NCBI GenBank assembly: GCA_020852555.1
Contig: JADZAQ010000051.1
Coordinates: 1 to 64,000 of the forward strand
Reading direction: 5' to 3'
DNA from: Burkholderiales bacterium
GTDB taxonomy: Bacteria > Pseudomonadota > Gammaproteobacteria > Burkholderiales > Casimicrobiaceae
DNA: 64,000 bases
In this document: one piece after another, positions 971-33,804 of the stretch
Position numbering within the stretch: position 1 is the first letter of the stretch
How the letters are laid out: each line of letters starts with the position of its first letter
Position numbers and translations under genes: made by a program
The notes under the pieces: generated by a model
Seen by the model: the letters and a program-made list of their open reading frames with translations, nothing else
Database searches by the model: none
What the model was told of the DNA's origin: nothing

Positions 971-2278
<1,308 letters not shown>

Positions 2279-28059: not shown

Positions 28060-29571
28060 ATGTGTGGCATCGTCGGTATCGTGGCGCACACGCCGGTCAA
28101 CCAACTCCTCTACGACGGACTCCTCCTGCTCCAGCACCGCGGGCAGGATGCCGCGGGCATCGTCACGAGCGAGGGCCCGGTCTTCCACATGTTCAAGGGG
28201 CCGGGACTCGTGCAAAACGTGTTCCGCACGCGGAACATGCGCGATCTCACCGGCCGCGCGGGCATCGGCCATTGTCGCTACCCCACCGCCGGATCGGCGT
28301 TCTCGGAACTCGAATCGCAGCCGTTCTACGTCAACTCGCCATTCGGGATCACACTTGCGCATAACGGCAACCTCACCAACAGCGAGGCGTTGAAGCGCGA
28401 GTTGTGGGAGGTCGATTTCCGCCACGTCAATACCAACTCGGACAGCGAGGTGCTGCTCAACGTGCTCGCCCTCGAACTGGAGCGCGCGGCGCAGCATCAT
28501 CGCCTGGATCCGGAGGCGATCTTCACGGCGGTGGCCGGAGTGCACCGGCGCTGCCGCGGTGCGTACGCGGTGGTGGCGATGATCGCGGGTTATGGACTGC
28601 TCGCATTTCGCGACCCCTTCGGCATCCGCCCGCTCATCGTCGGCCGCAACGAGCAGATGGGCGGCACCGAGTATCTCGTCGCTTCGGAGTCGGTGGCGAT
28701 CGAGCCGCTCGGTTTCCGCGTGGTGCGCGACGTGGCGCCGGGCGAAGCGATCTTCGTCGATGCCACCGGCGGGTTCCACGCGCGGCAGTGCGCCGAGCGG
28801 CCGTCGCTCAATCCGTGCATCTTCGAGTTCGTCTATCTCGCGCGACCCGATTCGGTGATCGACGGCACGTCGGTGTACGAGGCGCGCCTCAACATGGGCG
28901 ACGCGCTCGCCGAGAAGATCCGCCGCCTGCCCGCGGCGGCCGACATCGACGTCGTGATCCCGATCCCGGACTCGAGCCGGCCGTCGGCGCTGGCGCTCGC
29001 GACCCGGCTCGGACTCACGTACCGCGAGGGCTTCGTCAAGAACCGCTACATCGGCCGCACCTTCATCATGCCGGGGCAGGCGATGCGGCGGAAGAGCGTG
29101 CGCCAGAAACTGAATCCGGTGGGCATCGAGTTCAAGGGCAAGGTGGTGCTTCTCGTCGACGATTCGATCGTCCGCGGGACGACCTCGCGGGAGATCGTGA
29201 ACATGGCGCGCGAGGCGGGCGCGCGGAAGGTGTACTTCGCGTCGGCGGCACCGCCGGTACGCTTTCCCAACGTGTACGGTATCGACATGCCGAGCCAGGA
29301 AGAACTCGTGGCCACCGGCCGCACCGAGGCCGAGATCGCGCGGGAGATCGGCGCCGATCTCCTCATCTATCAGGATCTCACGGCACTGCAGGATGCGGTG
29401 CGCAAGGCCAACCCCCGTCTCGTGAACTTCGAGGCGTCGTGTTTCGACGGCAAGTACATCACGGGGGACATCACCGCCGACTACCTCTCGCACCTCGCGA
29501 GCGAGCGCAACGAGTCCCGTGGGCAGTACGCTGCGGCGGACCTGCTCGAAGAAGAGAGAGAACCCGGGTAG
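28060..29571 (+). CDS. purF: amidophosphoribosyltransferase
   Basis: [41 protein letters not shown]. Confidence 0.96.
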
Positions 29572-29705
29572 CTTCGCTGGCGCGCCGTGGAGCGCCGCGC
29601 CCGACCGCGGGGACTCGTTCGTGAAGCACCGCGATGGGGAAGCCGACGCGGCTGCGAATCGACTTGGCGTTGACGACGCGGTTCGCGACGACATAGAATT
29701 GAATT

Positions 29706-29765
29706 TCGCGCCGATTTGAAGCTTCAGCTTGCGGGCGCGTAACAAATGCCGCTAAAGCGAGGTTC
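29706..29765 (+). promoter_or_regulatory. SAM-II (SAM-alpha) riboswitch aptamer
   Basis: TCGCGCCGATTTGAAGCTTCAGCTTGCGGGCGCGTAACAAATGCCGCTAAAGCGAGG; P1 CGCGCC(29707-29712)/GGCGCG(29734-29739), ATTTG/CAAAT pseudoknot pairing, conserved AAATGnnGCTAAA tail; sits upstream of a metZ-like gene. Confidence 0.87.
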
Positions 29766-29800
29766 AGGCCCGGCCCGCGACGTTCGTGGAAGGGCACGCG

Positions 29801-29833
29801 AAACCCGTCAGGCGGTACTCGGCGGGTTTTTTT
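29801..29833 (+). terminator. Rho-independent terminator in the leader of the metZ-like gene (attenuator)
   Basis: AAACCCGTC (29801-29809) pairs with GGCGGGTTT (29821-29829) followed by T-run; located between aptamer and start codon. Confidence 0.85.
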
Positions 29834-29876: not shown

Positions 29877-31118
29877 ATGAGTAACGATGCCAAGCGCGGC
29901 TTCACCACCGCCATCCTCCATGCCGATCGCGGCGCCCCCATCGAGCACGGCGCGCTGCACAAGCCGCTGCACGTCTCCGTCGCGTACGGCTATCGTGACG
30001 CCAACGAACTCGCCGCCGTGTTCCAGGGGAGGGCGAGCGGCTACGCGTACGGCCGCCAGGGCAATCCCACCTCGGCCGCACTGGAGGCCAAGCTCACCGC
30101 GATGGAAGGCGGCGTCGGCACGGTGACATTCGCCACCGGCATGGCCGCGATCGGCGCGATCATGATCGCGCTGTTGCGCCATGGCGATCATGTCGTGGCG
30201 AGCCAGTTCGTGTTCGGCAACACGTCGAGCCTGTTGCTTACCCTCGAGGCGCACGGGCAGGGGGTGACGTTCGTCGATGCCACCGATGCGGCGCAGGTCG
30301 AGGCGGCGCTTACGCCCGCCACGCGTCTCGTCTTCGTCGAGACCATCGCCAATCCACGCGTGCAGGTGGCCGACCTCGTACGCATCGGCGAGCTCTGCCG
30401 AGCGCGGGGGATCGTCTACGTGGTCGACAACACGATGACCTCACCGTGGCTCTTCCGACCGGTCACCGCCGGTGCGAGCCTCGTCGTCAACGCGCTCACC
30501 AAATACATCGGTGGACACGGCAACGCGCTTGGTGGCGCGGTCACCGACACCGGGCTCTTCGACTGGACGCGCTATCCCAACATCTACGATTCGTACAAGT
30601 CGCAGCCACCGCAGAACTGGGGCCTCCAGCAACTGCGCAAGAAGGCGCTGCGCGACTGGGGCGCCACCCTCGCGCCCGAGCAGGCGCACCACATCGCGAT
30701 CGGTGCGGAGACGCTCGCGCTGCGCATGGAGCGCATCTGCGCCAACGCGCTCGCCCTCGCGCGGTTCCTCGGCACGCATCGCATGGTGCGTGCCGTCCAC
30801 TACCCGGGCCTCGCGTCGCACGGGCAGCACGCACTTGCGCAGGAGCTCTTCGGTGGGCGTTTCGGCGGCCTCCTCGCGTTCGAGCTGGCCGACGGCGTCG
30901 ATCCGATGGCCTTCCTCAACCGCCTGCGGATCGTGGTGCTGTCGTCGAACCTGGGTGACAACCGCACGCTGGCGATTCCGGTCGCGCAGACGATCTTCTA
31001 CGAGATGGGGCCGCAGCGGCGGGCCGCGATGGGCATCGCCGAGTCGCTGATCCGCATCTCGGTGGGCATCGAGGATCGCGAAGATCTCATCGATGACTTC
31101 GACCAGGCGCTCGGGTAG
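29877..31118 (+). CDS. metZ: cystathionine gamma-synthase family protein, probable O-acylhomoserine sulfhydrylase (MetZ-like)
   Basis: PLP-type Cys/Met metabolism enzyme (YGRQGNPTSAALEAKL, LTKYIGGHGNALGG); SAM-II riboswitch upstream. Confidence 0.8.
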   Translation: MSNDAKRGFTTAILHADRGAPIEHGALHKPLHVSVAYGYRDANELAAVFQGRASGYAYGRQGNPTSAALEAKLTAMEGGVGTVTFATGMAAIGAIMIALLRHGDHVVASQFVFGNTSSLLLTLEAHGQGVTFVDATDAAQVEAALTPATRLVFVETIANPRVQVADLVRIGELCRARGIVYVVDNTMTSPWLFRPVTAGASLVVNALTKYIGGHGNALGGAVTDTGLFDWTRYPNIYDSYKSQPPQNWGLQQLRKKALRDWGATLAPEQAHHIAIGAETLALRMERICANALALARFLGTHRMVRAVHYPGLASHGQHALAQELFGGRFGGLLAFELADGVDPMAFLNRLRIVVLSSNLGDNRTLAIPVAQTIFYEMGPQRRAAMGIAESLIRISVGIEDREDLIDDFDQALG

Positions 31119-32370: not shown

Positions 32371-32451
32371 GCTGCGCCCGCGCACCGCTGTCGCAGGAAT
32401 TGGGCGCCGCCGCCCGTGCGGGATAATGGCGTTCATTCCGCACGGGTGCCG

Positions 32452-33804
32452 ATGATGGATTCCATGTTTCGGATCGATGACGAGCGCAACGAGCCGGGTG
32501 ACCGCCCCGAACCGCCGCTCGCGCTGCCGCCGCTGCCCGCCGGCGCGCAGTACCGCTTCCACGCGATGGTCAAGGCGGTCGGCTCGCTGTGCAACCTCGA
32601 CTGCACGTACTGCTACTACCTGCACAAGCAGGATCTCCTGCGGCAGCCGAAGCAGCCCCGGATGGCCGACGGGATGCTGGCGCGGCACATCCGCCAGTAC
32701 ATCGAGGCGCAGACCGGCGACGAGGTCGTCTTCAGCTGGCAAGGCGGCGAGCCGACGATCCTCGGCGTGGACTTCTTCCGCAGGGTCGTCGAGTTGCAGG
32801 CGCGCTACCGCAAGCCCGGCCAGCGCATCGAGAACGACTTGCAGACCAACGGCACGCTGCTCGACGACGAATGGGCGGCGTTCCTCAAGGAGCATCGCTT
32901 CCTGGTGGGGCTGAGCTGCGACGGCCCGAAGGACCTGCACGACCGCCATCGCGCGACGAAGGGCGGTGCGCCGACGCACGACAAGGTGGTCGCCGCCGCG
33001 CGCCTCCTGCGCCGGCACGACATCCCCTTCGCGGTCCTGTGCGTCGTCAATCGCGACAACGCGCAGCGCCCGCTCGATGTCTATCGCTTCCTCAGCCGCG
33101 AGCTCGGCACGTGGCGCGTGCAGTTCATCCCCTGCGTCGAGCCGAAGTCGTTCCACCGCGTGGCGCCGCAGCGCTGGGATCCCGCGGCGCTGCCCATCGT
33201 CGGTACGCCGGCGGCGCGGCCCGGCAATCCCGACTCGGTGGTCACCGACTGGTCGGTCGACCCCGACGATTGGGGTGCTTTCCTGTGCGCGATCTGGGAC
33301 GACTGGTACGCGCACGACTACGGGCGCGTCTACGTCGATCTCTTCGAAACCGCAGTGGCGCAGTCGCTGGGCTTGCCGGCGCAGCGCTGCGTGAGCGCGG
33401 AGTTCTGCGGCAAGGCGCTCGCGGTCGAGCACGACGGTGACGTCTTCGCCTGCGACCACTACGTCTATCCCGAGTACCGGCTCGGCAACATCGCGGACAC
33501 CCATCTCGGGACGCTCGCCTATTCCGATGCGCAGCAGAAATTCGGCTTCGCCAAGCGCGATGCGCTGCCGACCGATTGCCGGCGCTGCCCGCACCTTCGG
33601 CTGTGCTGGGGCGAGTGCCCGAAGACGCGCTTCGTGCGCACGCGCTCGGGCGAGGCCGGGTTGAACTATCTGTGTCCCGGGTTGAAGCGCTTCTACGCGC
33701 ACATCGCGCGCGACATGCCGACGATCGTCGCGCGCATCCGGGGCGCGGTGGCGGTACGGCCGCCGTCACGCAGCGCTCCGCCATTTCGCCGGCGGACGGG
33801 GTAG
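32452..33804 (+). CDS. anaerobic sulfatase maturase-type radical SAM/SPASM protein
   Basis: CNLDCTYCYY radical SAM motif, FSWQGGEPTILG, SPASM cysteines (CGKALAVEHDGDVFACDHYVYPEYRLGNI, CRRCPHLRLCWGECPK). Confidence 0.9.
   Translation: MMDSMFRIDDERNEPGDRPEPPLALPPLPAGAQYRFHAMVKAVGSLCNLDCTYCYYLHKQDLLRQPKQPRMADGMLARHIRQYIEAQTGDEVVFSWQGGEPTILGVDFFRRVVELQARYRKPGQRIENDLQTNGTLLDDEWAAFLKEHRFLVGLSCDGPKDLHDRHRATKGGAPTHDKVVAAARLLRRHDIPFAVLCVVNRDNAQRPLDVYRFLSRELGTWRVQFIPCVEPKSFHRVAPQRWDPAALPIVGTPAARPGNPDSVVTDWSVDPDDWGAFLCAIWDDWYAHDYGRVYVDLFETAVAQSLGLPAQRCVSAEFCGKALAVEHDGDVFACDHYVYPEYRLGNIADTHLGTLAYSDAQQKFGFAKRDALPTDCRRCPHLRLCWGECPKTRFVRTRSGEAGLNYLCPGLKRFYAHIARDMPTIVARIRGAVAVRPPSRSAPPFRRRTG

Follow-up and report, generated by a model that had tools for sequence, protein, structure and literature searches.

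A predicted SAM-II riboswitch with a transcriptional attenuator between purF and a PRK05939-type gene of a Burkholderiales bacterium

The window (the whole 64,000-nt stretch analysed here, from an uncultured betaproteobacterium of the Burkholderiales) carries purF and, downstream on the same strand, a gene for a PLP enzyme of the cystathionine gamma-synthase family. Between them lies a leader comprising a promoter, a SAM-II aptamer and an intrinsic terminator. The features, in window coordinates, are the following.

28060..29571, + strand: purF, amidophosphoribosyltransferase, the upstream neighbour (TIGR01134, 519 bits; cut-off 350)
29670..29699, + strand: sigma-70-like promoter, TTGACG-18 nt-TAGAAT (10/12 consensus matches)
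29698..29772, + strand: SAM-II aptamer (RF00521, 34.6 bits)
29707..29712, + strand: P1 5′ strand, CGCGCC, partner 29734-29739 (RF00521 alignment, fold)
29713..29719, + strand: L1, GAUUUGA, third strand of the SAM pocket (U11, U12 of 2QWY), invariant in nearly all elements
29720..29725, + strand: P2a 5′ strand, AGCUUC, partner 29759-29764 (6 pairs, -5.8 kcal/mol)
29728..29732, + strand: P2b 5′ strand, CUUGC, with pocket U20, U21 and C23 (conserved core, published triples)
29734..29739, + strand: P1 3′ strand, GGCGCG (RF00521 alignment, fold, covariation of the outermost position)
29740..29750, + strand: L3, UAACAAAUGCC (11 nt in most elements, AAAU conserved)
29746..29765, + strand: proposed antiterminator 5′ strand, AUGCCGCUAAAGCGAGGUUC, overlapping the pocket and the P2 3′ strand (duplex with 29800-29817, -17.7 kcal/mol)
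29751..29756, + strand: GCUAAA, P2b 3′ strand and SAM pocket (G42, A45, A46; conserved core, published triples)
29800..29817, + strand: proposed antiterminator 3′ strand, GAAACCCGUCAGGCGGUA, equal to the terminator 5′ arm and loop (fold, permutation test)
29801..29833, + strand: intrinsic terminator, hairpin 29801-29829 and T-run 29827-29833 (fold, -14.0 kcal/mol)
29877..31118, + strand: PLP enzyme of the cystathionine gamma-synthase family (PRK05939), 413 aa (NF004609, 684 bits; cut-off 555)

The first-pass annotation had placed a SAM-II riboswitch with an attenuator at 29706-29833; its letters and coordinates proved correct when the window was re-read (29706-29765 is UCGCGCCGAUUUGAAGCUUCAGCUUGCGGGCGCGUAACAAAUGCCGCUAAAGCGAGGUUC), and the order of purF, attenuated SAM-II element and Cys/Met PLP enzyme is apparent in the sequence. 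The regulated gene had been called metZ-like, of which the assignment to the PLP enzymes of Cys/Met metabolism stands, whereas identity as MetZ does not by the curated cut-offs, given that the protein clears the PRK05939 model (684 vs 555 bits) and reaches only 288.6 bits against the cut-off of 510 for TIGR01325 (O-succinylhomoserine sulfhydrylase). No locus in the assembly, which is ~94% complete, scores above the MetZ cut-off. The start codon (ATG at 29877) agrees with an ortholog leader, and the PRK05939 enzyme presumably takes part in homocysteine/methionine synthesis. We identified 33 elements located between purF and a Cys/Met enzyme; in relatives, the slot following purF and SAM-II is occupied by a PRK05939-type gene at two loci (L026, L071) and by true MetZ at three others (L118, L129, L141), and it looks as if this were a fixed, switch-controlled slot in which the enzyme was exchanged for a paralogue. 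A further PRK05939-type gene (L162) has no purF in the upstream stretch examined. The genes downstream of SAM-II in relatives include metX, MetZ and metH, the last being a cobalamin-dependent methionine synthase preceded by SAM-II at L038. Separately, a SAM-II element with a terminator lies directly 5′ of a threonine ammonia-lyase gene at two loci, an unexpected regulon member called from a scan of the protein of one (L018), with the other (L030) sharing the same N-terminus. In the window itself, an anaerobic sulfatase maturase (radical SAM/SPASM, TIGR03942, 468 bits) is encoded at 32446-33804, two genes downstream of the switch.

The proposed SAM-II identity was upheld by the covariance model, as positions 29698-29772 (+) match RF00521 (SAM_alpha, SAM-II) over its full length (model 1-79) with 34.6 bits. 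The E-value is 2.8e-6 for 401 nt searched with 4227 families and 6.3e-6 genome-wide, where this is the sole match in the whole 3.83-Mb assembly, so that the element clearly exceeds what chance would produce; the same model gave 0 matches in 14 control genomes. A default Rfam scan of the window does not list the element, because its score falls 1.4 bits below the gathering score of 36, which is a cut-off for curated lists and not a biological feature. Three leaders of orthologous genes exceed this cut-off (G025:C54, 37.7 bits; G003:C75, 36.8 bits; G035:C398, 36.5 bits), and orthologs with 60-91% protein identity carry SAM-II at the same place upstream. A second, tandem SAM-II element was sought in the window leader and none was found. 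The minimum free energy of the 191-nt leader is unremarkable (z-score -0.41), as can occur for a pseudoknot in GC-rich RNA.

The anatomy of the element follows that of the known class. P1 consists of six Watson-Crick pairs (CGCGCC/GGCGCG), and P2 combines the CUUGC/GCUAAA core with P2a (AGCUUC/GAGGUU, the latter at 29759-29764; -5.8 kcal/mol). A pattern blind to P1 retrieved 114 elements; among these, the outermost P1 positions covary and are paired in 77% vs 45% after permutation (0/500; the permutations ignore kinship). The covariation of P2a is modest, with z of about -2 to -3 in most registers and none in others; an initial permutation test gave no signal, and the modest one emerged once the register had been corrected. 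The pocket triples of 2QWY are G8-G42-C23, U11-A45-U21 and U12-A46-U20 (PMC3764141), and every nucleotide of these is present in the window core GAUUUGA, CUUGC and GCUAAA, the numbering having been aligned by hand via the conserved core. We see no substantive difference from SAM-II as described by Corbino 2005 (RF00521; PMC1273637), with which the window shares the single P1 stem, the H-type pseudoknot P2 and the GAUUU / CUUGC / GCUAAA core, apart from the score 1.4 bits under the threshold. The window aptamer would be expected to bind SAM, and as judged from its sequence the element is a genuine SAM-II riboswitch, well formed and equipped with an attenuator.

The occurrence of SAM-II outside Alphaproteobacteria had been regarded as a surprise, a view that falls because the class is widespread in beta- and gammaproteobacteria. 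RF00521 matches at E <= 0.001 in 37 of the 61 genomes comprising the bacterium's own and its relatives (13 of them above the cut-off), and SAM-II occurs in 61 of 185 genomes that sample the bacterial class evenly; in this distribution, the window element is unexceptional. A pattern scan of named genomes returned at least 117 stretches, and among the matches listed are Burkholderiales, Methyloversatilis, Zoogloea, Dechloromonas, Nitrosomonadales, Gammaproteobacteria and Alphaproteobacteria. Two MAG records (L064, L082) are labelled Bordetella parapertussis, a label that is probably wrong. Terminators downstream of SAM-II in beta-proteobacteria were published in 2007. Since SAM-II is frequent in the Burkholderiales group, the find in the window is genuine, though of a familiar kind.

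The expression platform is likewise recognizable. A promoter scan of the region returned the sigma-70-like site alone, against 0.0 expected from shuffled sequence, and of two promoter-like sites within 20 kb it is the better one. It ends 6 nt upstream of P1, which places the predicted start a few nucleotides further on, near the first base of P1. A promoter just upstream of P1 was described for the SAM-II class by Corbino 2005 (PMC1273637), and the window shares with these elements the promoter right before P1, the terminator between P2 and the ORF, and the methionine gene downstream. The terminator had been reported as a 9-bp stem with a T-run about 35 nt after the aptamer, and we recovered it as such: the hairpin AAACCCGUC(AG..CU)GGCGGGUUU, with 9 outer pairs and followed by seven T, begins ~36 nt downstream of P2; the position given for the start codon (ATG, 29877) was correct as well. 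A consensus terminator scanner did not detect it, presumably because the loop of the outer stem exceeds the 8-nt limit of that program. A terminator is located 3′ of the aptamer in 23/23 leaders of orthologous genes (>55% identical to the window gene), whereas the same lenient threshold yields one in 33% of shuffled leaders. Moreover, its 5′ arm contains CCCG in 87/106 SAM-II-linked vs 17/75 other terminators of the same loci, and CGGG in 0/106 vs 12/75 (Fisher p 7e-16, with kinship ignored). In Sinorhizobium meliloti, the metZ SAM-II gives rise to a terminated sRNA that increases at high SAM (PMC9373788); this alphaproteobacterial system shares with the window a Rho-independent terminator between SAM-II and a Cys/Met PLP gene and differs from it in the enzyme, which is MetZ there and PRK05939-type here.

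Taken together, the element very probably controls transcription of the PRK05939 gene, and in all likelihood as an OFF switch. Transcription would start at ~29705. At high SAM, the nascent RNA would form the P1/P2 pseudoknot around the ligand, sequestering GCUAAA and GCGAGGUU, so that the hairpin at 29801-29829 could form and the polymerase would stop at the T-run. At low SAM, positions 29746-29765, including pocket nucleotides, would pair with 29800-29817, the terminator would not form, and the gene would be transcribed. Folds of the growing transcript (108-120 nt), computed without pseudoknots or SAM, show UGCCGCU-AAA-GCG-A-GGUU paired with AACCCGU-C-AGGCGGUA, a pairing that the terminator displaces once its 3′ arm has been made. 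As the proposed antiterminator strand holds the pocket GCUAAA and the 3′ strand of P2a, SAM binding and antitermination would be mutually exclusive. In the leaders of 19 PRK05939-type genes, the complementarity is stronger within own pairs (-17.8 kcal/mol) than within permuted ones (-16.0 kcal/mol; 0/2000 as good), and the own-pair advantage extends to all 63 leaders (0/2000 as good), in tests that ignore kinship. The true-MetZ and metX leaders alone follow the same trend weakly (180/2000 and 70/2000, respectively). Leyn 2014 suggested an antiterminator formed via regions 3 and 4, which here correspond to CUUGCGGG/P1-3′ (PMC4239095). This alternative strand, CUUGCGGG together with P1-3′, is strongly complementary to the terminator arm in all leaders, in absolute terms as much so as the pocket strand; pairing it with the arm of its own leader gives no advantage over permutation. 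When compared head-to-head, the 3′ strand is favoured over CUUGCGGG in 34/64 leaders, and neither clearly wins. We consider it likely that the antiterminator is built from the pocket strand.

An alternative explanation, which we regard as quite improbable, is that the SAM-II element acts on translation, with the hairpin serving as a constitutive terminator of the purF operon. Indeed, the hairpin lies 3′ of purF, and some SAM-II elements sequester the Shine-Dalgarno sequence (PMC6061858). However, P2a of the window contains no Shine-Dalgarno sequence, its GAGGUU being ~110 nt upstream of the ATG, and the hairpin is downstream not only of the aptamer but also of the aptamer's own promoter, with a 5′ arm complementary to the aptamer. 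In addition, comparable hairpins are present 3′ of the SAM-II elements of metX, at loci in which no purF was found upstream. Both modes of control are likely at other loci with tandem elements (SAM-II at 1506 and 1674 in L011, and at 1506 and 1660 in L019; a further tandem or variant case, L122, is on the minus strand), since the first element there has a terminator and the second, which carries a short L3 hairpin and GCUAAAGAGGAG, lies near the start codon; tandem SAM-II arrangements that mix platforms are known (PMC9481103).

Transcriptional control by a plus-strand SAM-II element also has to be weighed against a functional RNA on the opposite strand. RF02424 (Bp2_287, 'Burkholderia sRNA') has a minus-strand match in the window (29832-29671), and the family was detected in Burkholderia by RT-PCR (PMC3521395), so the element could be a trans-acting sRNA; we deem this still less probable. 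The match, at 34.7 bits, falls well short of the cut-off of 70, the hairpin is followed by a T-run on the plus strand only, and all 28 RF02424 matches in the 61 genomes (the window and 27 further) are antisense to a SAM-II element. Read by hand from the printed consensus, the reverse complement of RF02424 reads GCGUC-GAUUUGAUUUCAG-CUUGC-G-GACGC, continues with the hairpin GGGGCAAUUUCCC and GAAACA-GCUAAAGCG, and later forms a hairpin with a U-run, that is, a SAM-II core followed by a terminator. Its authors had themselves noted its location 5′ of methionine genes and suggested that it is a cis element (PMC3521395), and it shares with the window the locus type, with the element between purF and metZ or before metX; the differences are its filing as an sRNA on the opposite strand and an extra L3 hairpin in the consensus. 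RF02424 thus appears, from the sequences compared, to have been filed on the wrong strand and to represent the antisense of SAM-II. As for a decayed or chance aptamer devoid of function, to which the score slightly below the cut-off might point, it can practically be discounted in view of the genome-wide E of 6e-6, the fully conserved SAM pocket and the same position before orthologs of 60-91% protein identity.

A related case is the metXZ element. Leyn 2014 reported SAM_alpha from Rhizobiales and Rhodobacterales alone and described, in beta-proteobacteria, a 'novel' metXZ element with a pseudoknot and a terminator (PMC4239095). According to that description, it shares with the window six conserved blocks, a pseudoknot (1-4, 2-6), a terminator and a position before metX/metZ; it differs in having been published as a novel element, apart from SAM_alpha. 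Compared in this way, by description, the metXZ element probably belongs to SAM-II, with a hairpin insertion in L3 in some cases. An insert of this kind occurs in the genome of the window: before metX, a SAM-II-like element (L031, G000:C16, ~1062-1206, minus strand) has a ~26-nt L3 insert able to form a hairpin, and is missed by RF00521 and found by the antisense RF02424. Similar L3 inserts of different sequence are present at four further loci, namely L056, L058, L059 (before metX) and L060. 'SAM-II long loops' (RF01726) were described from Bacteroidetes and marine samples (PMC2864571). SAM_alpha, the 'metXZ element' and the RF02424 'sRNA' may well be one SAM-II family, part of which is hidden from the SAM_alpha model by the L3 hairpin, and in which the antiterminator, being the strand of the SAM pocket, and the pocket would exclude each other.

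The window element adds one to the known SAM-II switches, and its broader value lies in annotation. Both in Burkholderiales and elsewhere in the bacterial class, SAM-II is common but often scores just below the Rfam threshold or is masked by a hairpin insertion; RF02424, which Rfam lists as an sRNA family, appears to be its antisense. The pay-off for annotation and mechanism is modest, and it includes a concrete antiterminator model that a simple transcription assay could test.
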